A stretch of 64,000 bases of DNA from Mesobacillus jeotgali (GTDB lineage: Bacteria; Bacillota; Bacilli; Bacillales; Cytobacillaceae), in NCBI RefSeq assembly GCF_900166585.1, contig NZ_FVZC01000007.1, positions 248,001-312,000 of the forward strand, in the 5' to 3' direction. Under the pieces are notes generated by a model that made no database searches, had not been told where the DNA came from, and saw nothing but the letters and a program-made list of their open reading frames with translations. This document shows, one piece after another, positions 3,548 to 36,096 of the stretch. Numbering within the stretch: the first letter of the stretch is position 1; the number at the start of each line of letters is the position of its first letter. The position numbers were made by a program, and so were the translations under genes.

Positions 3548-4381
3548 ATGAATGAAACTGAAAACCTTATGAATAGTATATGGTTTGGAGAGAAATCAAG
3601 GCTATCCCAATCTGATATCAAAGATATAATTTTAAATGCTAAGACGGAAAGGGATGTTTTACTTAACTTAATTGAATTATATAAAATAGGGGACTTTGCT
3701 CAAAAACCATTATTAATTCAGTTGATGAATCAGACTAAGGATGAAGCTGTTTTGAATTTATGCATTAGAGTTTTTATGTCTATAGCCACACATGATGACT
3801 TTAGGGATTCAAATAACCTTCGATTCCTTAGTGAAGGTACTGAAGAAACAATTAACACTTTTGCATCTGCTGCTACAACTTCTCTTTCTTTGGAGATAAT
3901 TCCGTACTTATTGGCATTACTTGAAGAATGGGAAGATATTATTGAAACAGCTAGTATAATTAAAGATTCTATCGACTTTTTCCTTGATTTTGAACAGCAC
4001 ATCGGGGAAGAACCTACCGTAGAAGAGATTGGTGAATTCTATTTCGAGTTTAGTGATCATAATGATCCGAACCGTTATTATTTTCAACAAAATCTAGCGT
4101 TTCCTGGAGATTTAGCTAAAAAGTTAATTCAGAGAGTTATGATTGCAGCAAATAAGGGGGAATTGTTAAAGCTGGAATTGATTCCTTCATTATTATCTAT
4201 TTGGACGGGGAAAAAAGTGCCATTTGGGGGAAAGGGCGTCGATAAGCGGATCGATGTATTAGCGACAGCCATATTCCATTCCATGACGACCGAAGAGCTG
4301 CTTGATTTAGATCTGGCGTATGCTCCCCCTTATAACGGGGTGTGGGACCCTGTTCAGCAGGCGGCTAGGAGGGTGGAGTAG
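3548..4381 (+). CDS. Imm47-like immunity protein fused to the C-terminal fragment of a CoA-disulfide reductase
   Basis: The best start is ATG 3548 after GCAGGTG. Residues 1 to about 225 are an acidic all-helical protein resembling the Imm47 family of toxin immunity proteins. From about 4230 the sequence changes character: [14 protein letters not shown]...[23 protein letters not shown] is the recognisable C-terminal dimerisation segment of CoA-disulfide reductase/NADH oxidase-type flavoproteins, in frame to the stop. Codon use becomes more GC-rich there. I infer that recombination joined an orphan immunity gene to a truncated cdr gene. The tail cannot be catalytic because the FAD and NADH domains are missing. 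Confidence 0.65.
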
Positions 4382-8229: not shown

Positions 8230-9180
8230 ATGACCCATTTTTCAAGATTAATTCATAATGAGAATATAAAAATCTACAAACGTACCGGTACATGGGTGAT
8301 GATTGGAATCCTGGTACTCGTCGTAGCCCTGGTTGGGATTTTTACAAAGTTTGTATTAGACCCTGGCAGCAATGCGGACTGGAAGTCGCAGCTGAGCGCT
8401 GAAAATGCCCAAATGTCAGAGAATCTAGAATCTGCACCAATGCTTGAAGCGCAGAAGCGATTGTTGAAGGAAAGGATTGCCTTAAATCAGTATCGGATCG
8501 AACATGATTTGTCGCCAATTGAACAAGATTCACTTTGGGGTTACATGGTTGATGCCACGACATTTACTGGGCTTGCGGCTCTATTTACGATAGTCATTGC
8601 GGCCGGCATGGTAGCAAGTGAATTTTCCTGGGGAACGGTCAAGCTTCTGCTCATTCGCCCTGTAAGCAGGACGAAAATCCTCATGGCAAAATACACATCG
8701 ACCTTGTTATTCGCACTCTTGATGCTTGTTTTATTATTTAGTTCATCTTTCCTGTTCGGCATCCTATTTTTCGGTTTCAGCGGAACGGAGGCGCCTTATC
8801 TTGCTTATAGCAATGGAAGGGTCGTCGAGCAGAATATGGTCACACATATTATTGAACTCTTTGCATTCAGGAGCATTGATCTGGTCATGATGGTGACACT
8901 CGCTTTCATGATATCAACTGTATTTCGAAGCAGCTCGCTAGCCATCGGGATCTCCTTGTTCCTTATGTTCACAGGTCCGCAGTTAGTCCAGCTGTTAAGC
9001 CAGTATGACTGGGCAAAATACATCCTTTTTGCCAATACGGAACTTCAGCAATACACAACGGGAACACCGATTGTTGAAGGGATGACGATGACATTCTCAA
9101 TCGTCACGCTCCTGATCTACTTTTTGCTGTTTGCCTTCCTATCTCTGTTCATTTTCAACAAGCGTGACGTTGCAGCCTAA
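8230..9180 (+). CDS. ABC-2 type transporter permease
   Basis: A 316-residue integral membrane protein. One transmembrane segment near residues 16-38 is followed by an extracytoplasmic loop of about 70 residues, then five further segments between 110 and 312. It starts directly after the ATPase stop, with GGAGGAGAAATAA as ribosome binding site overlapping that stop. It is the membrane partner of the BcrA-like ATPase. The SWGTVKLLLIRPVSRTKIL block after the second segment is typical of ABC-2 permeases. Confidence 0.82.
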   Translation: MTHFSRLIHNENIKIYKRTGTWVMIGILVLVVALVGIFTKFVLDPGSNADWKSQLSAENAQMSENLESAPMLEAQKRLLKERIALNQYRIEHDLSPIEQDSLWGYMVDATTFTGLAALFTIVIAAGMVASEFSWGTVKLLLIRPVSRTKILMAKYTSTLLFALLMLVLLFSSSFLFGILFFGFSGTEAPYLAYSNGRVVEQNMVTHIIELFAFRSIDLVMMVTLAFMISTVFRSSSLAIGISLFLMFTGPQLVQLLSQYDWAKYILFANTELQQYTTGTPIVEGMTMTFSIVTLLIYFLLFAFLSLFIFNKRDVAA

Positions 9181-12865: not shown

Positions 12866-12943
12866 ACAAAGAAACAGAGGATCGTTCTGCTGTTTTAGTA
12901 GCCTGGACTACATGAAACAGTAGAACCGTCCCTTTGTTTTACT
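12866..12943. repeat. Palindromic element of the GGGACGGTTCT family
   Basis: The left arm (AAACAGAGGATCGTTCTGCTG) and right arm (AAACAGTAGAACCGTCCC) are imperfect inverted repeats about 25 bases long. The right end abuts the truncated 5' end of the orphan toxin cassette. The rest of 12694-12865 contains no gene that I can see. Confidence 0.5.
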
Positions 12944-13475: not shown

Positions 13476-13727
13476 TTGGCTTCATACGTTTTATTATTAA
13501 AAGAATACGAAGATAGTGAAAAGGTTGTATACAAATTTGGGCCCAATGAAAATATTATGGGGAAAATTGAATTAAATAAACTTACGAGGAAGTTTTCAGA
13601 ACTAGAGGTTATACCGGATCAGAATATTCCATCTAAGTTCTACTTTGATCGAGCTGCGCAACGACTTGCAGTTTGTTTGATGAGGGAAGGCGGAGTTTTT
13701 CCAGATAGAACAGCTTTTGAGTCATAA
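13476..13727 (+). CDS. Probable immunity protein of the orphan toxin cassette
   Basis: An 83-residue soluble protein with a TTG start, six bases after a strong GAGGAGGAG that lies in the cassette's 3' end. Recognisable features are VYKFGPNENIMGKIELNK and FDRAAQRLAVCLMREGGVFPDR. No named family is certain. The three-base gap to the toxin tip and the small size are typical for a cognate immunity gene. It can still be expressed only if a promoter lies upstream within the cassette; none is obvious. Confidence 0.6.
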   Translation: MASYVLLLKEYEDSEKVVYKFGPNENIMGKIELNKLTRKFSELEVIPDQNIPSKFYFDRAAQRLAVCLMREGGVFPDRTAFES

Positions 13728-13744
13728 GTAAATCGGACAAGGTG

Positions 13745-13776
13745 AAGCTAGAGTTTTATTTACTCTAGCTTTTTAT
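13745..13776 (+). terminator. Rho-independent terminator after the immunity gene
   Basis: AAGCTAGAGT (13745-13754) pairs with ACTCTAGCTT (13762-13771), then TTTTAT. Confidence 0.85.
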
Positions 13777-13918
13777 ATTGTAAAAGGTTAGAGGGAGGTT
13801 CTATAAAAAGAAGTATCTTATGAAAGAGCATTCCTGTTTGAAGGATTTTCGAGGACTTGAACAAAAAAGAGCCCTCTTAGTATGATACGGGGTGTCAAAT
13901 CGTACACCGAATTAACCC

Positions 13919-14436
13919 CTAACTTAGGTCCAGGAGGACTCCAAGATAGACACGGGGACGGTTCTCGTGTCTCGCAAAAAGAGAAAATATGTAAATATCA
14001 GAGGCGGTAGAACCGTCCCACTGTCTCCTGAAGGACTCCTTGAACTTTCGATCAATCAAGGAAGCTAGTGCTTTAATGTGCCCGTAGTTTTGGACAAATG
14101 GGTTCATCATTTTGAACTTCCCATTGACGGACCATATTTTTCTGTCTTTCCCGCCGTATATCATGCCTTGATAGTTTTTCGTTTCAATTACAAAAATGCC
14201 GTATGGTGTCAGCACAACATGGTCAATCTGTGAATATCCTGACTTTGCTTTTGGGTTCTTTATCAGAAGATAACTCAAGTAGCGGCTTCTTTTGGCAGCT
14301 GATCTAGCTGTATATCAATCTTGTATTCTCCAATTTCACCTTTTCTTACGGCAACCTGTTTTGGAGCGGCAGTCATCGCTTTTACAGGGGGTGTCTCTGT
14401 CTTTTGCTTCTTCAAGAAATTAAGAATTAATAACAT
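13919..14436 (-). pseudogene. NERD-domain protein gene broken by a frameshift and a small insertion
   Basis: The true start is ATG at 14436-14434 behind AAGGAGAT. The first frame (MLLILNFLKKQKTETPPVKA...QLPKEA) stops near 14280. The second frame continues with YLLIKNPKAKSGYSQIDHVVLTPYGIFVIETKNYQGMIYG, the core of the nuclease-related domain. One missing base near 14285 explains the break. At about 14032 the coding sequence runs into a palindromic element, and everything after it reads out to a stop at 13921, so the C-terminal half is lost. Function lost. Confidence 0.8.
13943..14031. mobile_element. 89-bp palindromic insertion with 8-bp flanking repeats
   Basis: AGACACGGGGACGGTTCT (13948-13965) and its inverted partner AGAACCGTCCCACTGTCT (14009-14026) form near-identical ends. 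AGGACTCC occurs immediately outside at 13935-13942 and 14032-14039, as expected of a target duplication. The insertion interrupts the NERD gene. It belongs to the same family as the elements at 16.6, 18.2 and 21.3 kb. Confidence 0.6.
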
Positions 14437-14574
14437 GATAATATCTCCTTGCTGTAAAGTATCCTCTCTTATACTTTCGTTCTAATACCTTCTTTATTTA
14501 ACTTTTAATTTGATATAATGGAAAAAATAACTAATTTCTATCTTGAGGGTTAGGATGATTGAAGGGTGATTTCA

Positions 14575-15192
14575 ATGGATCTGAAGCAAATACAAAAAAC
14601 AATTGACCGGGCTATCAAAAATATTTGGGTAGGAAAAATTTCAAAAGACCATAAGTCGTTTTATCTATTGAAAGAAGATACATTAAAAAATGCTCTCTAT
14701 TTCCATTTGCGATCTGAACTGGCTAGCTTATTAGAAAAGCACAATGTAAGGATTTATACGGAATATCATCATGGTGGATTTATTGCGGATCTGGCCATTG
14801 TGAAATTGAATGAAAAACCAGGAAACAATAATCATTTGAAAGAAGACATTGAAACTGTTCTAGCAATCATTGAGTTAAAGTATAAAGCCAACGGTCCAAT
14901 GAAGTTTTTCGAAGATGATGTGCAAAAAATAAAAAACTATATAGATGCCACACCATTAGCAACTACTCAATACTATTTAGCTTTTATCCATGAGGCGGAG
15001 TACGAATACATTGAAGATGACTCATGGCTGACTCTAGAGCAACAAGTATGGGCAATAGACCGATTGACAGAGTTATCTGGGCAGTATATTGACGGTGTAA
15101 TGACCTGGACGGTTGGATCCCATAAAAGTATGAATGAGAAGTATAGGTGGGAGTCGATTTCCCAAGGCGGAGCCCAGGGAAGCAGCAACTAG
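14575..15192 (+). CDS. Hypothetical protein, possible PD-(D/E)XK-type fold
   Basis: The best start is ATG 14575, eight bases after GAAGGG; a GTG at 14566 is in frame but has no site. The protein has 205 residues and is soluble. HGGFIADLAIVKL followed about 30 residues later by AIIELKYK has the D...ExK spacing of PD-(D/E)XK nucleases, with a preceding Glu in the EYHH helix. This is inference from motif only. Its neighbours give no pathway. Confidence 0.5.
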   Translation: MDLKQIQKTIDRAIKNIWVGKISKDHKSFYLLKEDTLKNALYFHLRSELASLLEKHNVRIYTEYHHGGFIADLAIVKLNEKPGNNNHLKEDIETVLAIIELKYKANGPMKFFEDDVQKIKNYIDATPLATTQYYLAFIHEAEYEYIEDDSWLTLEQQVWAIDRLTELSGQYIDGVMTWTVGSHKSMNEKYRWESISQGGAQGSSN

Positions 15193-15296
15193 CAAAGAAG
15201 AGAAATGGAAGAATGAAGGGGTTTTTGAGAGAACAAAAGGCTCATTTAGCTACAGCCTTTGGCTCTATTAATAGACTGTTTAAGTGGGGGATAAAT

Positions 15297-15551
15297 GTGC
15301 AAACCGTTAAGAAGTTTAAACCTGAGTATATTACTATTATTTTAATGGTGATAGTAAGTTTTGTTCTATTACTAACACTATTTACTGGACTAGCTTCACT
15401 AAAGGAATCGATTTCATATTCTTTAGTTATCATCTTACTTTGTTTTTTAACAATAGATATTAAAAAAAATTCATTTAAGGAACAATCATCAAATATAGCC
15501 TTTAGGTATGTCCTGATGATTTTCTTGTTTGCTTACTTAGCTCTATTTTAA
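15297..15551 (+). CDS. Small membrane protein of unknown function
   Basis: The likely start is GTG 15297 eight bases after GTGGGGG; the frame is open further upstream but that part does not read like protein. The 84-residue product has three hydrophobic segments (YITIILMVIVSFVLLLTLF, SYSLVIILLCFLTI, FRYVLMIFLFAYLALF). No family recognised. Confidence 0.45.
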   Translation: MQTVKKFKPEYITIILMVIVSFVLLLTLFTGLASLKESISYSLVIILLCFLTIDIKKNSFKEQSSNIAFRYVLMIFLFAYLALF

Positions 15552-27013: not shown

Positions 27014-27565
27014 AAGACATTCAAAAATATAAATGATAACCAGAACAACTAAAATTGGGCGTAACAGAGGAAAAAGGCTAGGGATGGTCATATATTTCTT
27101 TTACGAAGAAACTTTTCAGAAAACAATAGGCATTTTGCTACTTCTGTAGGATTGTTTTGAATCCAGTATTTGGTATTATTTTAGGCGTATGAAAGGGAAT
27201 GTGAGGAGATTACTGGGAGCAGGAGCTGGAATGAAGGTATAGGTGTAGAACCTATGTGCAGGCGAAATGCTTTGGCGGCAAAATTGTAAGTGCTAAAGCC
27301 GAAATCCGATTTCTAGAAAAAACGTTTTGTTTTCATTTCACTATATAAAAGGTAGTAGTACAAACCTGCACTTTTGTCTGCAAATAGGTATGTTAAGAGT
27401 TGTTTAAGATTTTAAACTTCCTAGGATTCTTTTTCCGCCTTTATATAAAATGAAGATGGAAGATCAATTAGTAAAAAGAGATAGTAAAAGAGAAAAATAA
27501 GCGGCCAAATACCACATATAACCATTTTTGTGATAAAATAACAATATACTAAATAATGGAGGAAA
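27014..27565. other. Gene-free stretch, nothing recognised
   Basis: About 550 bases of AT-rich sequence without convincing coding frames, hairpins or repeats. The part near 27180-27290 is richer in G and may be old coding debris. Confidence 0.4.
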
Positions 27566-27742
27566 ATGATGATTAATGTCTTACGCGGTATAGGATTTAT
27601 TGCGGCTGTTGTTTATTTTATCTGCCAATTCACTGCCCTGGGCGACAACCAGGCTATTGAGAAAGGTGCATTAGTGGTCCTCATTGTAAGTGTGTTAATC
27701 AGCTTCGTCATTCCTGATAAGAAAAAAGAGGAGAAGGCTTAG
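27566..27742 (+). CDS. 58-residue two-pass membrane protein
   Basis: Starts at ATG 27566 or 27569 after TGGAGG. Two hydrophobic segments (8-25 and 34-50) are followed by a charged KKKEEKA tail. A perfect terminator follows 16 bases after the stop, which supports a real gene. Function unknown. Confidence 0.6.
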   Translation: MMINVLRGIGFIAAVVYFICQFTALGDNQAIEKGALVVLIVSVLISFVIPDKKKEEKA

Positions 27743-27757
27743 ATGAACCAACGAAAA

Positions 27758-27787
27758 AGAAGACACTAATGTTAGTGTCTTCTTCTC
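27758..27787 (+). terminator. Rho-independent terminator
   Basis: AAGAAGACACTAA pairs with TTAGTGTCTTCTT without a mismatch. Confidence 0.8.
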
Positions 27788-27872
27788 GTTTCTGTAACAG
27801 ACGTTTGCCGCGGCTGTTAAAAAAGGTGCTTCTACAATAAGAATACACAATATACTTGCATGAAAACAAGTG

Positions 27873-28814
27873 TTATGCGTGCATTTTTTCTGTCATTTGA
27901 GGGCTGACTTTCTTCTCAAGGAAGATTTCTTCCAGGGAAGGCTGGTCAGCGGTTACCCTGAACAGATCGATGCCCAGCTCGCTCAGACCACGGATGATGA
28001 TTGGGATAGAATCTTCCTTACCAATTTCGACGCTTGTTTCGCTAGCACCTATTTCAATATTATGGCTGAATTTGCTTAAAAATGCATAGGTTTTTTCCTT
28101 TTTAGGACTGGCAAGAGGAGAGTGCACCAGTTTAATGGTCATTGTTGCATTGTGCTTTTGCCTTAGTTCATCCATGGTGCCTTCATGCATGATTCTTCCT
28201 TTCTTCATGATGGCAATACGGGTACATATTTTTTCAACTTCATGTAAATTATGAGAGGTCATAAAGATGGTCATACCGCCCCGGTTCAGCTCCCTGATCA
28301 GTTCTTGAATCTGGATCGCAGATTCGGCATCTACTCCAGATGTGGGTTCGTCCAAAAATATGAGGTCAGGGTTATGGACTATGGCTTGGGCGATTCCAAG
28401 CTTTTTCTTCATTCCAAACGAAAATTTGCCGACCTTTTTATTGGCATGTTCTTTCATGCCGACCTTATCAAGGACTTCAAGGCAATGCTGCTTGCCTGCC
28501 TTCACACCGCACAATTTTGAGAAAAAGCGAAGATGCTGCATGGCGGTTAAGTGGTCATAGAAGGTGGAGTAATCCGGCAGGACACCGACCTTTCTCCTTA
28601 TTTCCGGAGTTAGGCTCTTTTCCGAAAACAGGGAGAACTCTCCGCTCGATGGCAGGATAATACCGGTAAGCATGTTGATGAACGTGGATTTTCCGGCTCC
28701 GTTTCTTCCCAGGAATCCATAGATTTCTCCTTGTTTTACTGTCAGGTCAATTCCATTTACGACCGTCTGTTTTCCAAACTCTTTATGGAGAGAGGTTGTT
28801 TTAATCACTTCCAT
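27873..28814 (-). CDS. ABC transporter ATP-binding protein (BcrA/NatA-like)
   Basis: A 313-residue ATPase with Walker A GRNGAGKS, signature FSFGMKKKLGIAQAIVH, Walker B LIFLDEPTSGVD and H-loop TSHNL, followed by a C-terminal domain of about 90 residues. Its start overlaps the permease stop at 28814. It lies divergently from the two-component system at 29593, the classical layout of a peptide-antibiotic exporter. Given the bacteriocin gene at 34.2 kb, self-protection is a plausible role. Confidence 0.85.
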   Translation of the reverse strand: MEVIKTTSLHKEFGKQTVVNGIDLTVKQGEIYGFLGRNGAGKSTFINMLTGIILPSSGEFSLFSEKSLTPEIRRKVGVLPDYSTFYDHLTAMQHLRFFSKLCGVKAGKQHCLEVLDKVGMKEHANKKVGKFSFGMKKKLGIAQAIVHNPDLIFLDEPTSGVDAESAIQIQELIRELNRGGMTIFMTSHNLHEVEKICTRIAIMKKGRIMHEGTMDELRQKHNATMTIKLVHSPLASPKKEKTYAFLSKFSHNIEIGASETSVEIGKEDSIPIIIRGLSELGIDLFRVTADQPSLEEIFLEKKVSPQMTEKMHA

Positions 28815-29500
28815 TACAGATCACTCCTTTTAAACAGGTATATGGAAAGCACTAATAATAGGACTGTCATGGCGAGTGGCACCGTGATATAGGGACCTCC
28901 CAGATAAATATAGTAATAGGGAGAAAGAAATTTAAACCAGGACACAAATGGGTTTGAAGTGGCAATGGCCCAAAAACTGACGGCCGGGAACAGCAATGCC
29001 AGGATGATTCCGAAGAACATCGTTACAGCTGGTCTTGGGAAAATGACGGAAACCAAAAGAATCAAGGAAATCGAAAAAGTGATGAAAATAAGGCTTTCTG
29101 CAAAGCTGAGCCAAAGAAATTCCTTTGAAAAGCTGCTGATCAGTAAAAATGAGATGAATAAGCATAGGATCCAAAAAAGACTGATACCCAAAAACTTTCC
29201 GATGATGATTTTCGATCTAGAAGTTTTGGTCACAAGAAAGCGCATCGTTCGGGAGCTTACCTCACGATTGATGGTGTCGTGTGAGAGCCCGGAGACAAAA
29301 AAGAGGCCGAAGAAGACGATCAGGATCATGAGTCCTGCTGCATAGCCATTTTTCCCAAGTTCCTCGGTTCCTAACTCCTGCATGAACTGGCCCATGACAT
29401 CCGCCAGCAAATAGGAGGAACCAAAAATGATGCCGATGATGGCCAATGTTTTAAAGCTTTTAAACAAACTCTTAAATTCATGAAAACAAATGGTATTCAT
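28814..29500 (-). CDS. ABC-2 type transporter permease
   Basis: A 228-residue membrane protein with six hydrophobic segments. NREVSSRTMRFLVTKTSRSKIIIGKFLG after the second segment is the typical cytoplasmic loop of ABC-2 permeases. It is first in a two-gene operon with the ATPase. It has 80 bases of divergent promoter region shared with the response regulator gene. Confidence 0.82.
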   Translation of the reverse strand: MNTICFHEFKSLFKSFKTLAIIGIIFGSSYLLADVMGQFMQELGTEELGKNGYAAGLMILIVFFGLFFVSGLSHDTINREVSSRTMRFLVTKTSRSKIIIGKFLGISLFWILCLFISFLLISSFSKEFLWLSFAESLIFITFSISLILLVSVIFPRPAVTMFFGIILALLFPAVSFWAIATSNPFVSWFKFLSPYYYIYLGGPYITVPLAMTVLLLVLSIYLFKRSDL

Positions 29501-29592
29501 GTTATCCGCTCCTTTCTGTCATTAAGTATAATGACTGCAGCTTAATTTCAGCTGAACACAATCTTAAATTCACCTTAATTTTGGGGGTAGAC

Positions 29593-30291
29593 ATGGAAAA
29601 GAAAAAACTGCTGCTGGTAGACGATGAAGAAGATTTATTGATCATGCTCAAGATGGTGATTGCAAAAGAAGGAGACTTTTCGATAGATACCGCCTCTACA
29701 GGCCAGGAAGCTCTTCATAAGGTTCAGCAGAACCAATATGACTTTATTGTGCTTGATATTATGCTCCCGGATATGGAGGGATACAGGGTCTGCACCGAAA
29801 TCAGACAAATAGCCGACATCCCAATCCTGTTCCTGTCAGCCAAGAACTCCGATCTCGATAAATTAATGGGATTTGCCCACGGTGCAGATGACTATCTAAC
29901 GAAACCTTTTAATCCGCTGGAAGTGGCCGCCAGGATCAAAGCCATCCTGCGCCGGACTTCTTTGCAAAAAGAGGACAGGACAGAGAAAGTATTGGATTTT
30001 GGATGGTTTTCTGTTCATTTATCCTCTGCGGAATTAAAGGTCGATGGAAAGGCTGTCCCGTGCACAGGCATCCTGTACCAGCTGCTGCTGCTGTTCTGCC
30101 GACATCCCAACCGTGTCTTTTCCAAAGAGGAGATTTACGAGCGAATCTGGAAGGAACCTCATTTTATCGATGACAATACAGTCATGGTGCATATCAGAAA
30201 GTTGAGGGAGAAGATTGAAAAAGATCCAAGCCAGCCGGAATATATCAGGACCGTCCATGGGCTAGGCTATAAATTTGTTGCGAGGGATTAA
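29593..30291 (+). CDS. OmpR-family response regulator
   Basis: Starts at ATG 29593 six bases after GGGGG. The 232-residue protein has acidic pocket DDEED, phospho-acceptor Asp in IVLDIMLPDMEGY, Lys in LTKPFNP, and a winged-helix domain ending MVHIRKLREKIEKDPSQPEYIRTVHGLGYKF. It is followed without a gap by its kinase. It probably controls the divergent ABC exporter and perhaps the bacteriocin operon downstream. Confidence 0.88.
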   Translation: MEKKKLLLVDDEEDLLIMLKMVIAKEGDFSIDTASTGQEALHKVQQNQYDFIVLDIMLPDMEGYRVCTEIRQIADIPILFLSAKNSDLDKLMGFAHGADDYLTKPFNPLEVAARIKAILRRTSLQKEDRTEKVLDFGWFSVHLSSAELKVDGKAVPCTGILYQLLLLFCRHPNRVFSKEEIYERIWKEPHFIDDNTVMVHIRKLREKIEKDPSQPEYIRTVHGLGYKFVARD

Positions 30292-31965
30292 ATGCGAGGA
30301 ATTAAAAGAGATTTAACGCTGTATTTTATCTTCCGTTTCCTGTTTTTGCTGATCATGGTCATGATGTTTCTTGGAGGAATGATCCTATACCTCTCCTATC
30401 AAATCCTGCAGAACGAAACAAAAGGGAATTTTCATAGGACGACACGAGAATATCTTGAAAGCTCCCTCCACAGGGAAAATGGGGAAATCCGGATTGAAAA
30501 TAAAATGAAACAGGCAGTGAAAACGCAGAATGGCTGGGTCCAGATCCTTAATGAAAGCGGGGAGGCAGTGGAAGGCTACCATGTGCCTGAAGGCGTTCCT
30601 GAAAGGTATGAATTAAACGATTTTCTCACACCTGCCCTCTCGTTACCCTATCAGGTGTCACGCTGGAACATTACAATCGACAAGGAGGAATATATTGTTC
30701 TTTATGGCCATTCCTCTAAAAGTTCGGAACTGTACGAACAAATTGCCGGCTATGCAGCTGCTGACACCATCCCTAAAGAAGTTAAGAGACTTGCAGACAA
30801 AGAGAAAGCAGCTATTTTTCTTCTGAATCATGAAGGAAGGATGATTGAACAATATGATGGGGGCCTGGAGCCAGAGATCAATTTTATCGATCTTCAGCAG
30901 TCATATGAATATAATCCGGAAGCAAAATATGAGATTGCCAGCGGAGCAGACCCTGAGACAGGGAATATCCTTACCGTCGTGACACTGAATCAAACCCAGA
31001 TGGACGGAAAGGAAAATGATAAAGCTCTGAAAGTGTTCATTGCTTTTCTGCTCCTTCTGTTACTGATCTTGCTCCTGGTTTCCGTGAACTATGGAATGAA
31101 GATTGGAAGGGGAGTCCTCTTTATCATGGACTGGATCAATCAGCTCGCCAAAGGGGAGTATCCTCAGGAGAAGCTGTCACCCAAAGGGCATACCGAGTCT
31201 GCGTTTTTCAATCGGATTTACCATTCATTGACGAACCTGACAAGAACTCTAGATGAGAATAAAAGAGAAATTGAAGGCAATGAAAGACTGAGGGAAGAAT
31301 GGATTGCCGGGCTGACGCATGATTTGAAGACACCAATAAGTTCGATTTATGGTTATTCCAAGCTTTTGCAGGCCGACCCGGAACGATGGTCGCTTGATGA
31401 GCTGAAAATCATGGGAAATACCATGACAGAGAAATCAGATTACATAATTGAACTGATTAACGACCTGACCTTAAGCAATCAGCTGGCAAACTCCTCTCTG
31501 AATTTAGAAAAAGAGAGAGTGGATGTGAGGGTAATTCTTCAACATTCCATTGCCTCGTTAAAGCTTGAGCTTGAGCGGAACAAGTCCGAAATACAGTTTG
31601 AATCTGATCCATCTGAGGTCATGTGGCCGGTCGACCCGACAGGTTTTAGAAGAATTTCCGATAACCTGCTGGCCAATGCGGTCAAGCACAATGCTGCCGG
31701 TACGAAGATTGCAGTGAAGCTGGATAGAAGGAACGGCGCACTGTATCTTTCGGTAAGAGACAACGGAAATGGAATGGATGAAATCACGCAAAGGAATCTT
31801 TTCAGAAGATATTACCGGGGAACGCACACAAAGGAAAGGGATTCCGGAACAGGATTGGGCATGGCGATTACCAGGCAGCTAATCCTTGCTCATGGAGGCT
31901 CGCTTGAATTGAAGAGTAAAATTGGGGAAGGGACAGAAATTTTGGTCTGGTTTCCCGGTGAATGA
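30292..31965 (+). CDS. Membrane sensor histidine kinase
   Basis: A 557-residue kinase: membrane segment about 12-35, extracytoplasmic sensor domain about 36-243 (large for this group), second segment about 244-265, HAMP-like linker, H-box LTHDLKTPISSIYGYSKLL with His about 343, N-box NLLANAVKHN, G-boxes DNGNGM and GTGLGMAITRQL. It starts directly after the response regulator stop. A large outer domain suits sensing of a peptide or envelope signal; the ligand is not known. Confidence 0.88.
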   Translation: MRGIKRDLTLYFIFRFLFLLIMVMMFLGGMILYLSYQILQNETKGNFHRTTREYLESSLHRENGEIRIENKMKQAVKTQNGWVQILNESGEAVEGYHVPEGVPERYELNDFLTPALSLPYQVSRWNITIDKEEYIVLYGHSSKSSELYEQIAGYAAADTIPKEVKRLADKEKAAIFLLNHEGRMIEQYDGGLEPEINFIDLQQSYEYNPEAKYEIASGADPETGNILTVVTLNQTQMDGKENDKALKVFIAFLLLLLLILLLVSVNYGMKIGRGVLFIMDWINQLAKGEYPQEKLSPKGHTESAFFNRIYHSLTNLTRTLDENKREIEGNERLREEWIAGLTHDLKTPISSIYGYSKLLQADPERWSLDELKIMGNTMTEKSDYIIELINDLTLSNQLANSSLNLEKERVDVRVILQHSIASLKLELERNKSEIQFESDPSEVMWPVDPTGFRRISDNLLANAVKHNAAGTKIAVKLDRRNGALYLSVRDNGNGMDEITQRNLFRRYYRGTHTKERDSGTGLGMAITRQLILAHGGSLELKSKIGEGTEILVWFPGE

Positions 31966-31969
31966 AGAA

Positions 31970-32007
31970 AAGAGATAATGCTCCTTTATGGCATTATCTC
32001 TTTTTTA
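31970..32007. terminator. Bidirectional terminator between kinase and bacteriocin operon
   Basis: AAAGAGATAATGC pairs with GCATTATCTCTTT, with T runs on both strands. The stop codon of the permease gene (31994-31996) lies inside the stem. Confidence 0.85.
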
Positions 32008-33388
32008 TGGCAATGCTTTGCTTCTTGGTCCTTATATGAGCGACTTGTTTTGTCATCTCAAATGCATCCAGGTACTTGGCGAGCAAGACAGCCAGAGCGC
32101 CGGCGGCAAGTATAGGCCACCAGGAATAGATGATTTGCTCGATTAAAATATTTAAAGGGACAACAAACAAGAAAAACAGAAAGGATGAGCGGTTTCGATG
32201 TTTGGCGGTAAGATTCCCTGTGATAATAAAAAGACTGTTTAACGCCAAAAAACATAGAAGAGCCACAAAACTGTACGAGATGTCGACCAGATTGAGCAGC
32301 CCCAGAGCGAAATATAACATCATCGCCAGGAACCAGGTGAACACCAGCAGGATACCTGCGGTGATATCGGATACCAGGCTGGCAGCTTTAGGAGTTACAG
32401 GAAATAAATAAGGGTTATTCAGTTTGGCCAGTTTTCCAGAAAACTTCAATTTTGAGTTCAGGATCAGCGTACAAATCAGGGCGATTGTCAGCGACAGTTC
32501 TTCGCCCGATCTCTTGGTGAAGGCATAGCCAAAAGCTGACGTTAAAATAATAAAACTTAACATATAGATGTAAGAAAGCAGAATGTCCTGATCCCTTAAT
32601 GCTTTAATAAAGCTGACCTTAAGAAGGGCCCTGAACCTTGCGGGAAGAGCAATGAATACGAAGCTGGCCAGTTTTAAGAATACAACGATTTTCTGCTGGC
32701 TGATGGGAACGAAATGATACTTTTTTTCCGAAAGAATGTGCGAGATCATTGTTTTATGGCTGGCCAGCCCCAGCGCCGAGATGATGGCCAGAAGCGAGCA
32801 GAAGGCCGATGAGTAGCTGAGGGGCAGCAGTTTTTGATCTGAAAAATACAGAATATAGAACTGTATGATTAATGCCAGGCACAGGAATGAGAGAGTGATC
32901 ACATACTTGATGATCCTCAGTTTTTTTAACCAGAAATAGAGATATTGCAGACATAACGCTGCAATGACGATTAAATGGAACATGATCATTGCCTTGGCGA
33001 TTGTCAAAAGGGACTGCTGATAAAGCAAGAGCAGCCCTATCAAAATGATTTGCTCGATTTGCACAGCCCTGCTTAGCCATGCTGACGTTATATACTGATA
33101 GAAAAAGATCGTGCTTGGAAGAATCGGAACGTATTTAAAAGAGTCGAGTAAAACAGGAGTGCCTTTTTTGCCTATTCCTCCGATGATGGAAGCGGATAAT
33201 AAGGAGATGGTAAAAAGTAAGGTGAAATACATATTCAGTGTCTGGCCAACGGTCCAATAATGGAACCCTGCGGACACACCGCCGTAAAAGAAAATCAGGA
33301 AGGCAAGCTCACTGAAGGTGAGAGAGTTTGTGGTTTCAAAAGCTTTATGATAGAGAGTCTTATAGGTTTTTAATTTCAAGTGAATCAC
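31994..33388 (-). CDS. Large ABC exporter permease of the bacteriocin operon
   Basis: A 464-residue protein with about ten to twelve hydrophobic segments and short loops. No peptidase domain or conserved ABC-2 loop is obvious, and I do not recognise the family. It overlaps the ATPase by four bases. Last gene of the operon regulator - peptide - ATPase - permease. It probably exports the peptide or gives immunity. Confidence 0.7.
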   Translation of the reverse strand: MIHLKLKTYKTLYHKAFETTNSLTFSELAFLIFFYGGVSAGFHYWTVGQTLNMYFTLLFTISLLSASIIGGIGKKGTPVLLDSFKYVPILPSTIFFYQYITSAWLSRAVQIEQIILIGLLLLYQQSLLTIAKAMIMFHLIVIAALCLQYLYFWLKKLRIIKYVITLSFLCLALIIQFYILYFSDQKLLPLSYSSAFCSLLAIISALGLASHKTMISHILSEKKYHFVPISQQKIVVFLKLASFVFIALPARFRALLKVSFIKALRDQDILLSYIYMLSFIILTSAFGYAFTKRSGEELSLTIALICTLILNSKLKFSGKLAKLNNPYLFPVTPKAASLVSDITAGILLVFTWFLAMMLYFALGLLNLVDISYSFVALLCFLALNSLFIITGNLTAKHRNRSSFLFFLFVVPLNILIEQIIYSWWPILAAGALAVLLAKYLDAFEMTKQVAHIRTKKQSIAIKKR

Positions 33389-34059
33389 CCTGCGGTTATA
33401 TTGAGTAGCTTCCTGTTCTTAATTTCGAAGGATTTAGTAGAGATAGCCTCTCCATATTCCTTTAAGTGAGTCGTAATCAGCGTTAGCTTTCCGCGATTTT
33501 TTCGTTCCTGGAAAAGGTGAAGGACATGTTCGACAGATTCCGAGTCCAATCCTTCAAAAATTTCATCGCAGACCAGGAAAATTGGATCGATGAGCAGGCT
33601 GCCGATCAACTGTATCTTTTTCTTGCTTCCAAAGGATAGCGAACTGATCAATTCATCCCACTTATCCCCTACATTCAGCTGGACGCTCAGCTGAAGTGCT
33701 TCCTCCAGTTTAGGAGCTTGATTTAGATTGTATACATCAATAAGGAATGAGAAGTACTCACTCGGGGTGAGCAGATCCATGAATTGCTGATGGTCAATGG
33801 AAACGATGCAGCTATGCTGCCTTAAGTGCTGATGGTCATCAATGGAACGGCCCAATAACGTAATACTGCCACTGTCGATTGGCAGAAAACCAAGGATGCT
33901 GTTCAGGAAGACAGATTTTCCGGACCCGTTTGGCCCATAAAGCAGGATCACTTCTCCACTATGCAATTCCATGTCGATTTTATCCAATATTACTTTATCT
34001 TCAAATGTCTTGGTCAGGTCTTTCACCTGAAGCACGGGTGACTGCGTTTCCACTTTCAT
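33385..34059 (-). CDS. ABC transporter ATPase of the bacteriocin operon
   Basis: A 224-residue single-domain ATPase: Walker A GPNGSGKS, Q-loop, a degenerate signature LSFGSKKKIQLIGSL, Walker B FLVCDEIFEGLD and H-loop TTHL. The LSFGS instead of LSGGQ signature and the short length fit the CcmA/BcrA-type exporters of bacteriocin immunity systems. It lies 95 bases after the peptide gene; the gap contains the palindrome TTGTAA-GAACCA-TTACAA, which could let most transcripts stop after the peptide. Confidence 0.8.
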   Translation of the reverse strand: MKVETQSPVLQVKDLTKTFEDKVILDKIDMELHSGEVILLYGPNGSGKSVFLNSILGFLPIDSGSITLLGRSIDDHQHLRQHSCIVSIDHQQFMDLLTPSEYFSFLIDVYNLNQAPKLEEALQLSVQLNVGDKWDELISSLSFGSKKKIQLIGSLLIDPIFLVCDEIFEGLDSESVEHVLHLFQERKNRGKLTLITTHLKEYGEAISTKSFEIKNRKLLNITAG

Positions 34060-34154
34060 TTCCCCTTTTTTAGATAAGGATAGGCGTGCCCAAACTTTAT
34101 GTAGTTTATTAGTTAGTAAGGTTAATAGATAATGGGCTTAGTTTGTAATGGTTC

Positions 34155-34364
34155 TTACAAGCCGATAATGGCTTTAAGGATTTCCCAAAGGATAGCAACC
34201 TTTGAGATATTTCTCCATAACCAACTTGCAACTGCAGAAGCACCTTTTTTAACAGCCGCGGCAAGTGCTGCATAATCAATAGCGCTTAATTTAGATTTTA
34301 CTGCAGAAGCGATTTTACTCCAATATTGAACGATATATTTAGCGATTGTACCAATTCCTGGCAT
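34155..34364 (-). CDS. Candidate cationic bacteriocin, leaderless or circular type
   Basis: The real start is ATG 34364, ten bases after AGGAGGAG (a longer frame to 34406 lacks a site). The 69-residue peptide has eight Lys, one Arg, one Asp and one Glu (net about +7), four Trp (15, 48, 50, 60), no Cys, and amphipathic Ala/Lys-rich helices (SAVKSKLSAIDYAALAAAVK). The IIGL end and Trp/Lys pattern recall leaderless bacteriocins such as aureocin A53; 69 residues also fits circular bacteriocins. There is no Sec signal or double-Gly leader. The neighbouring ABC pair supports an exported antimicrobial. Confidence 0.7.
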   Translation of the reverse strand: MPGIGTIAKYIVQYWSKIASAVKSKLSAIDYAALAAAVKKGASAVASWLWRNISKVAILWEILKAIIGL

Positions 34365-34427
34365 GTTTATTTCTCCTCCTGTTAAAGCCTGGCATCGCCT
34401 ATCCATTTACAAATATACTAAACGTTT

Positions 34428-34682
34428 CTATAAATTGGTATTTCGTGTTTCCGCAAAGTTCATCATTTTCGGACAAATAATACCCGTCTGGAATGCTCTT
34501 GTCACAATGCCCACGCGGGTTTTGACGTTCAGCTTCCTGAAAATGCAACTAATCTTGTACTCTACCATTCTTTGCGAATAATTAAGAATTGACGCAATTT
34601 CCTTGTTTGGCACTTCTTTAGCGATTAGTAGTATGATTTTTTTCTCGGTCTCTGAGACGACTTCTGGCTTTACTGATTTCAT
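34428..34682 (-). CDS. Stand-alone LuxR/GerE-type HTH regulator
   Basis: The start at 34682 is eight bases after GGAGG. The 84-residue protein is just one LuxR-type helix-turn-helix: PNKEIASILNYSQRMVEYKI followed by FRKLNVKTRVGIVTRAFQTG. It has no receiver or ligand domain. It is first in the operon, 63 bases before the peptide gene, and probably controls it. Similar small regulators occur in other Gram-positive bacteriocin loci. Confidence 0.75.
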   Translation of the reverse strand: MKSVKPEVVSETEKKIILLIAKEVPNKEIASILNYSQRMVEYKISCIFRKLNVKTRVGIVTRAFQTGIICPKMMNFAETRNTNL

Positions 34683-35259
34683 ATCTTTTTCCTCCATGTT
34701 TTTGAACGATTTGAATGATGTAAGGTGTTCATTTTTGTTTTTAGTCCGGCTTGAAGCGAAAAGTTTTCGGAATCCGTCAGGGCCATAAAAGAGCTAGGTG
34801 TCCAGATGAATTCAGGCTGATTCCTGAATTTTGGCAATCACTCTCCTCTATATCATTTTTTAAAATCACACTGGCAAAAAAGTCTGTATTGTCAGCATGA
34901 TTTTGTCATGTGAGTGGTGATCCTAGACCTTTTCAAGCAGGTATGTGGAGTTAGCCAAAGTGGAGGTCTTATGCTATTTGAACCTGAATGGAAGAAAAGG
35001 AGGACACCTCATGTGATGGAAAATTTATACAAAGAACATTATATAATAATCTAAAAGTGGATTGTGTAAATTTACACGTTTTTTACAAATTTGGTTATAA
35101 AGCACTATTTCGTTCAATCCTTCGATTCTCCCCTCGCTCGGCAAACATAAAGTTTTAGAGGTTTCCTTTTTTATTTAGAAACACGAAAAAATAGATTGCG
35201 AATACTCTGATAGAGTCTTAAAATGAGGGAGGGAAAATGTTAGAGAGAGAAGGATCAGC
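34683..35259. other. Intergenic region upstream of the bacteriocin operon
   Basis: About 575 bases between divergent genes. It must hold the minus-strand promoter of the bacteriocin operon and the plus-strand promoter of the EamA gene. AT-rich; no clear ORF, palindrome or repeat was seen. Confidence 0.4.
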
Positions 35260-36096
35260 ATGTGGATTGCCGCGGCATTGGTAACGACGTTAAGCTTTGG
35301 GATCAATAATACGATTTTTAAATGGAGTACAGCACGACATCTTTCAAAAGTACATATTCAATTTTTCTTTTACTTGGTAGCCTTTCTGGTCACCCTTGGT
35401 TATGGAGTGGCGTCTGGGGCGCTGGAGTTCAACTTGCTGGCAATGGTTCTTGGCGGCCTGATTGGAATATTGAATGCAAATGGGAATATCCAAATGTCGA
35501 GGGCGTTTGAGAAGGGGCCGGCAAGCCTGACATCGCCTCTGGTAGGCGCAAACGCGATATTTCCGATTCTCGGTGCAGCGGTTATTTTTCACGAACAGAT
35601 CAGCCTGCTTCAGTGGCTAGGCATTGTATTCATTCTGGGCTCGGCCTTGTTGATTCAATATTCGCCAGGCACGAACCGCGGGACTGAGTATGGGCCATGG
35701 CTATTTCGGGTGCTTTTGGCCATTCTTTCGTTCGGGATTCTTGGAATCTTGATGAAGACGACTTCTTATTTGCAAATCAGTTCGCTTAATACATTGATTT
35801 GCATGTATGGCGGCGGAAGTATTTATTTGGGAATCACCAGCATTCGGGAAAAAGAGCATTGGCAGCTGACAGAAGCCAATATCGGTTCTCTCGTTGGCTT
35901 GATCAGTGTCATCGGCTACAGCTGTTACTTTTATGCATTGCATGAGGGAACAGCGAGTATTATCTTCCCGATTGTCAGCCTGAATTGCCTGGTCGTCATA
36001 CTTGCTGGCATCTGGCTTTTTAAAGAGAAAATCAAAATGTACCAGCTTGTTGGAATTTTTTCAGCGTTGCTTGGTATTATTTTTACGAAAATATGA
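35260..36096 (+). CDS. EamA/DMT-superfamily transporter
   Basis: A 278-residue protein with nine to ten transmembrane segments in the two-EamA-repeat arrangement (GALLQ-like ends ASLTSPLVGANAIFPILGA and ASIIFPIVSLNCLVVILAG mark equivalent helices). It exports or imports a small metabolite; the substrate is unknown. It is preceded by GAGAGAAGG and is monocistronic. Its last third exists as a decayed copy at 11351. Confidence 0.82.
   Translation: MWIAAALVTTLSFGINNTIFKWSTARHLSKVHIQFFFYLVAFLVTLGYGVASGALEFNLLAMVLGGLIGILNANGNIQMSRAFEKGPASLTSPLVGANAIFPILGAAVIFHEQISLLQWLGIVFILGSALLIQYSPGTNRGTEYGPWLFRVLLAILSFGILGILMKTTSYLQISSLNTLICMYGGGSIYLGITSIREKEHWQLTEANIGSLVGLISVIGYSCYFYALHEGTASIIFPIVSLNCLVVILAGIWLFKEKIKMYQLVGIFSALLGIIFTKI

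Follow-up and report, generated by a model that had tools for sequence, protein, structure and literature searches.

The 64-kb stretch of Mesobacillus jeotgali DNA analyzed here (the window, from a 4.6-Mb genome in 9 contigs) carries what we read, with a probability of about 0.7, as a toyoncin-like leaderless bacteriocin locus with a dedicated trans-encoded antisense RNA. The peptide gene (34155-34364, minus strand) encodes 69 residues and was recognized from its open reading frame (ORF) and ribosome-binding site, its homologues, its similarity to toyoncin and an AlphaFold2 model. The candidate RNA of about 82 nt (27752-27833, minus strand), delimited by complementarity, folding and conservation and with predicted ends, lies 6.4 kb away, just behind the stop codon of a gene for a BcrA-like ATPase. 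Judged from the sequence, what is new in this locus would be the candidate antisense RNA, the peptide family itself being already known. Our literature search, judged by titles and abstract openings, turned up no publication describing an RNA of this kind for leaderless bacteriocins.

A candidate antisense RNA behind bcrA

According to a repeat search, positions 27805-27836 and 34233-34264 form an inverted match of 32 nt (97% identity), of which 29 nt are perfect; the initial annotation had missed it. On the minus strand, the second copy covers codons 34-44 of the peptide mRNA, and its perfect part (34236-34264) corresponds to codons 34-43. This is the longest exact inverted match between sites more than 150 nt apart in the window, where the runner-up reaches 19 nt, and 100 shuffles gave no match. 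When up to 3 mismatches are allowed, the 29-nt pattern is found in the whole genome at these two sites only and the reversed control is found nowhere. The exact pattern was absent from viral contigs.

Read on the minus strand, the bcrA stop codon is followed by TTGTTT (27869-27864), an 18-nt spacer and TATTCT (27845-27840), which by eye make up a candidate promoter (27840-27869). Six bases later comes AGAAGCACCTTTTTTAACAGCCGCGGCAA, the exact reverse complement of codons 34-43 of the peptide mRNA, and the predicted 5' end of the RNA is the first complementary base (27833). Behind it lie a small hairpin and then a terminator-like hairpin of 12 pairs with a T-rich end (27757-27784, minus strand), which the automatic scan lists on the plus strand only, the minus-strand T-run having been recognized by eye. 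Terminator-like sites show little excess overall (10, compared with 7.1 in shuffles, sd 2.9). A search of 27400-35300 against Rfam gave nothing above the gathering score, the sub-threshold match being IMES-1 at 31226 (E 0.49).

The pairing predicted for the two sites lies far above background. The 88-nt RNA region folds with a z-score of -4.5, only 1 of 200 shuffles being as good. When it is cofolded with the peptide mRNA, the gain is 43.4 kcal/mol, whereas 115 other segments average 5.4 (sd 2.7, best 16.8). In a duplex scan of the first 45 nt of the RNA over 1,020 segments of 250 nt, the peptide gene reaches -64.3 kcal/mol and the next segment -37.4, once two segments representing the complement of the RNA itself are excluded.

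The RNA region is also conserved. M. subterraneus shares positions 27372-33213 with the window at 88.9% identity, and the 88-nt segments covering the RNA score at the top of the 5,755 sliding segments compared (87/88). Identity is 81% in the 32 nt just upstream of the RNA and 87.5-92.7% in the genes around it. M. subterraneus retains the -10 box, and its -35 box reads TTGATT.

Next to the RNA, a 58-aa membrane-type ORF (27566-27742) runs convergently with it and shares its hairpin. This ORF matches no Pfam family and is 93% conserved in M. subterraneus; read-through from it would yield an RNA complementary to the candidate RNA.

A toyoncin-like leaderless peptide

The peptide contains 8 Lys, 1 Arg, 1 Asp, 1 Glu, 4 Trp and no Cys, which gives a net charge of +7, and AGGAGG precedes its ATG. 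It matched no family in Pfam, NCBIfam or PHROG. A single-sequence search of 5.8 billion proteins, which requires shared 5-residue words and which distant relatives therefore escape, returned two close relatives, P0001 and P0002 (97% and 90% identical). Their longest contigs (535,440 and 6,011 bases) equal in size those of close relatives of the permease encoded in the same operon, which points to co-location of peptide and permease in these sources. A contig search with the peptide as query found nothing, and searches of plasmids and phages gave no match.

A profile built from these three sequences gave weak matches in 9 other genomes among the 397 of the order. Those in G283, G249 and G550 are real: they are peptides of 67-70 aa, each followed by an ATPase and a permease (loci L045, L046 and L047, respectively). 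G588 showed a 42-aa peptide fragment only. Over the family and order searches together, weak matches outside the own genome numbered 10. Among these, L036, L037 and L039 were kept, and L040, L041, L043 and L044 (open frames of 244-711 aa) were left uncounted and unopened. Inspection of L011, L038 and L042 showed that none is a peptide gene of the toyoncin-like type.

Toyoncin is described as a purified 70-aa leaderless bacteriocin of Bacillus toyonensis XIN-YC13 (PMC8174769). In pairwise comparisons made with no profile, the window peptide is similar to the G283 peptide (z 10.1) and the G283 peptide to toyoncin (z 23.3, alignable end to end); none of 500 shuffles attained the score in either case. 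The window peptide also resembles toyoncin directly (z 6.7, 0 of 500 shuffles, 31% identity), and it resembles the G249 and G550 peptides with z-scores of 8.5 and 7.5. With a seven-sequence profile, into which toyoncin and three Geobacillus-type peptides had been built, a search at E up to 0.1 yielded 11 proteins, none of them weaker than 2.7e-11. These are Geobacillus and Bacillus homologues and include P0010, a one-residue variant of toyoncin (E 5.5e-24).

The alignments start at Met1 with no N-terminal extension (the 48-aa P0017 is shorter). The absence of a leader, already proposed in the initial annotation, agrees with homology that begins at the first Met and with a similarity to toyoncin that is both direct and transitive. 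AlphaFold2, run on 12 sequences, predicts five helices (4-13, 15-25, 28-40, 42-51 and 53-67; pLDDT 90.5). The helix bundle that had been anticipated is thus found in the prediction; for the saposin-like relation anticipated with it, Foldseek and VIA gave no informative fold relative, and there was no solved bacteriocin among the structural matches listed. That the peptide is of bacteriocin type and made without a leader appears well supported by homology. By the same comparisons, it is best placed as a new, divergent member of the known toyoncin-like leaderless family. Of the earlier proposal of a new class II bacteriocin, the leaderless bacteriocin type is retained and the new class gives way to this divergent membership.

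The ABC partners and the two-component module

On the minus strand, a helix-turn-helix (HTH) protein, a Cys-free peptide of net charge +7 with four Trp, an ATP-binding cassette (ABC) ATPase and a large permease had been annotated, and all four are confirmed. The HTH protein is a stand-alone GerE/LuxR-type regulator of 89 aa (34428-34697, minus strand; Pfam GerE, E 1.9e-10; alternative ATG at 34682), and over 61 aa it shares 41% identity with the HTH of a response regulator encoded close to the homologous G249 locus. Beside that locus, positions 9594-13210 of L046 hold genes for a ComQ-like polyprenyl synthase, a sensor kinase and a GerE-type response regulator, possibly a ComQXPA-type quorum-sensing set; an upstream 54-aa frame ending in NLWV, which has no Pfam match, could be the pheromone precursor.

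The ATPase gene (33385-34059, minus strand; Pfam ABC_tran, E 1.4e-19) encodes a protein 40-44% identical to the ATPases downstream of the peptide in L045, L046 and L047. Its signature, LSFGSKKK, had been called degenerate. It is indeed non-canonical but not decayed: in an alignment of the window with these three relatives, LSFG[ST][KR]KK is kept in all four sequences, and by eye the Walker motifs appear intact. The permease of 464 aa (31994-33388, minus strand) matches no Pfam family or PDB entry. A profile comparison links it to the L045-L047 permeases (probability 96%, E 2e-9), pairwise BLAST being weak and the L045 frame reading only 375 aa. Its AlphaFold2 model (pLDDT 40) is too poor for use, and a contig search with it found M. 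subterraneus DSM 13966 only.

Each of the four loci that were read and have a full-length peptide (the window, L045, L046 and L047) shows the order peptide-ATPase-permease, so that the ABC genes expected beside homologues of the peptide adjoin it in each. No such pair figures in the ORF list for the first 8 kb of the G588 contig, which carries the 42-aa fragment.

A second exporter had been annotated nearby and is confirmed on the minus strand. It consists of a BcrB-like ABC-2 permease (28814-29500; ABC2_membrane_2, E 3e-11) and a BcrA-like ATPase (27873-28814; ABC_tran, E 8.8e-29), the latter 58% identical over 271 aa to its L045 homologue. The OmpR-type two-component system, annotated as lying on the same side as the peptide operon, is on the plus strand (29581-31965), convergent with the peptide operon and divergent from bcrBA. 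It comprises a response regulator (29581-30291; Response_reg and Trans_reg_C) and a sensor histidine kinase (30292-31965; HisKA and HATPase_c).

The initial annotation treated the whole block as one unit, and this holds in part. All four loci have a BcrAB-like pair close to the peptide operon: downstream in the window, L046 and L047, the calls in the last two resting on ORF translations and one Pfam hit, and upstream in L045, behind transposase-like ORFs. In L045, whose genome belongs to another family, an OmpR-type two-component system is present as well, in divergent orientation, as judged from ORF translations. On the other hand, G004 carries a two-component system and a BcrBA exporter like those of the window (L052, 5852-10026; BcrA 56% identical) with no bacteriocin peptide, and in M. 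subterraneus the module outlives the peptide. The two-component/BcrAB module is separable from the peptide. These two genomes speak for the view, compatible with any of the other readings, that it is an unrelated resistance module merely standing beside the bacteriocin operon. Against this view stand the BcrAB-like pair beside that operon in all four loci and the similar two-component system of L045; we consider it unlikely but worth serious thought.

Two further features were seen in L047. About 5 kb from the toyoncin-like operon of G550, three ORFs (13692-15466), for a SpoIIM/DUF95 protein, an ABC ATPase and a membrane-type product, are arranged as in a circular-bacteriocin cluster. The whole bacteriocin block is flanked by inverted pieces of about 100 bp (3594-3695 and 9010-9110), which hint at its route of insertion.

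Peptide loss, possible silencing and known systems

A search of the whole M. subterraneus genome did not find the peptide. Within a 19-kb stretch that includes the shared block, nothing matches the HTH regulator, the peptide, the ATPase or the first 57 or so permease codons, the HTH regulator and the ATPase having been sought in that stretch only. The remaining permease is open and 86% identical to that of the window, which suggests that the loss is recent. The initial annotation had held that loss of the peptide with persisting ABC genes would speak against its proposal. The situation here is ambiguous: BcrAB and the two-component system are kept, but the peptide's own ATPase and the N-terminus of its permease are missing too. 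A dispersed intergenic repeat of about 70 bp (12872-12940 in the window) occurs near the break in M. subterraneus in several copies and both orientations, within a few kb of the break point.

Several observations weigh against a dedicated antisense RNA in a toyoncin-like locus. The promoter is weak, an automatic scan giving a different pair at this place (ATAACA/TATATT), and promoter-like sites in the region are in no excess (17, compared with 16.5 in shuffles). Some coding 88-nt segments reach 86/88, so the margin by which the RNA is conserved is narrow. The RNA region persists in M. subterraneus without its target; unless the target was lost recently, the peptide cannot be what keeps the RNA region conserved there now. 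Among the 193 family genomes, 12 gave a match at E ≤ 0.01, and the whole RNA region was matched in two only, those of the window and of M. subterraneus, both of which have the block. The other ten match in short pieces (E 6e-7 to 0.006), and the few short pieces touching the antisense part (22-38 nt, E 0.002-0.006) are probably due to chance. No antisense copy stood out, by exact match or duplex energy, in the 19-kb stretches around the L045-L047 peptides, and the antisense RNA was not seen as a family-wide feature. Inverted pieces in L047, which lie upstream of the peptide gene and by eye share a coding fragment, were not counted as such an RNA. Nor do all the relatives resemble toyoncin equally: for the G249 and G550 peptides no direct similarity is seen, 272 and 115 of 500 shuffles attaining the score, and for P0002 it is weak (z 3.4, 3 of 500 shuffles), so that the family link passes through the window and G283 peptides.

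Part of this would suit a leaderless bacteriocin locus in which the 29-nt inverted copy is an inert recombination remnant with no regulatory role. The match stops at 32 nt, M. subterraneus keeps the copy without the target, and none was seen near the Geobacillus-type peptides. However, the copy begins where transcription is predicted to start, a promoter-like site and a strong hairpin enclose it, and no other stretch of the shared block is better conserved. Inert DNA should have drifted by about 11% between the two species. We regard an inert remnant as distinctly improbable.

We give little credence to the idea that the peptide is mainly a type I toxin with the RNA as its antitoxin, the ABC genes being passengers or detoxifiers. 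A small helical peptide with an antisense RNA is the layout of type I toxin-antitoxin pairs. In B. subtilis, RNase III is reported to silence such toxins: it guards the cell against small toxins of prophages, with antisense RNAs pairing to the toxin mRNAs (PMC3531473). But the related toyoncin was, by its description, purified from culture supernatant (PMC8174769), each of the 4 loci has an ATPase and a permease gene behind the peptide, and the 19-kb stretches of L045-L047 showed no antisense RNA around the related peptides. A circular bacteriocin, which the initial annotation had also envisaged, would fit a size near 70 aa and a predicted helical bundle but is barely credible, as the genome's sole PF01944 (SpoIIM/DUF95) match at E ≤ 0.001 sits on another contig (contig 9), away from the locus, and toyoncin is described as linear and formylated (PMC8174769).

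If the locus is a leaderless bacteriocin locus with its own antisense RNA, the 69-aa peptide would fold as a five-helix bundle and attack the membranes of related Gram-positive bacteria. The adjacent ATPase and permease would export it, protect the producer or both, and the two-component system with BcrAB would sense and remove it. Leaderless bacteriocins require no leader removal, and leaky synthesis would be dangerous because such a peptide is active once translated. To our knowledge, how leaderless producers escape self-poisoning before immunity is in place is poorly understood. Whether transcribed from a promoter of its own or produced as the 3' end of the bcrBA mRNA, the RNA would pair through its first 29 nt with codons 34-43, inside the coding sequence. 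The duplex would recruit a cut by RNase III that removes the peptide message, possibly sparing the ATPase-permease part of the transcript, and immunity would then come before the weapon. In this proposal the RNA would silence the bacteriocin mRNA, with RNase III as the probable agent, as in type I toxin-antitoxin pairs. A bolder proposal, to which we assign somewhat less than an even chance, is a toxin-antitoxin hybrid cluster: a leaderless weapon would be silenced by a trans-encoded antisense RNA located in the 3' region of the immunity exporter gene, synthesis of immunity would co-produce the silencer, and loss of the peptide would leave an orphan RNA antitoxin, as in M. subterraneus. A dedicated antisense RNA, if true, would be a simple and testable answer to the self-poisoning problem and would link bacteriocins with type I toxin-antitoxin systems.

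A divergent two-component system with an ATPase/permease pair is typical of peptide-antibiotic detoxification, and the window shares this arrangement with BcrAB-type exporters that have OmpR systems. Unlike the usual BcrAB modules, the one in the window stands beside a bacteriocin gene and has a candidate antisense RNA in the bcrA 3' region. Compared by its description, the toyoncin locus likewise has, behind the gene of a leaderless, Cys-free peptide, genes for an ABC ATP-binding protein and a putative membrane protein, with an HTH regulator upstream; in contrast, its other regulators are described as MarR-type, and the accessible part of the report describes no OmpR two-component system or antisense RNA (PMC8174769). 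According to the same source, leaderless peptides usually have 26-53 aa (PMC8174769). Aureocin A53, lacticin Q and geobacillin 6 are described, like the window's peptide, as leaderless and helical, with ABC genes for export and immunity, whereas geobacillin 6 is reported to have 48 aa and a locus with PH-domain (YdbS/YdbT-like) proteins (PMC11580447, PMC10311245). Finally, the txpA/RatA pair combines, in a Bacillus host, a small-peptide mRNA with an antisense RNA that pairs with it, as the candidate in the window would (PMC3531473). RatA is described as overlapping the txpA 3' end by a predicted 120 nt or so (PMC3531473), whereas the candidate RNA of the window is encoded 6.4 kb away, would pair over 29 nt inside the coding sequence and would target a bacteriocin-type peptide.

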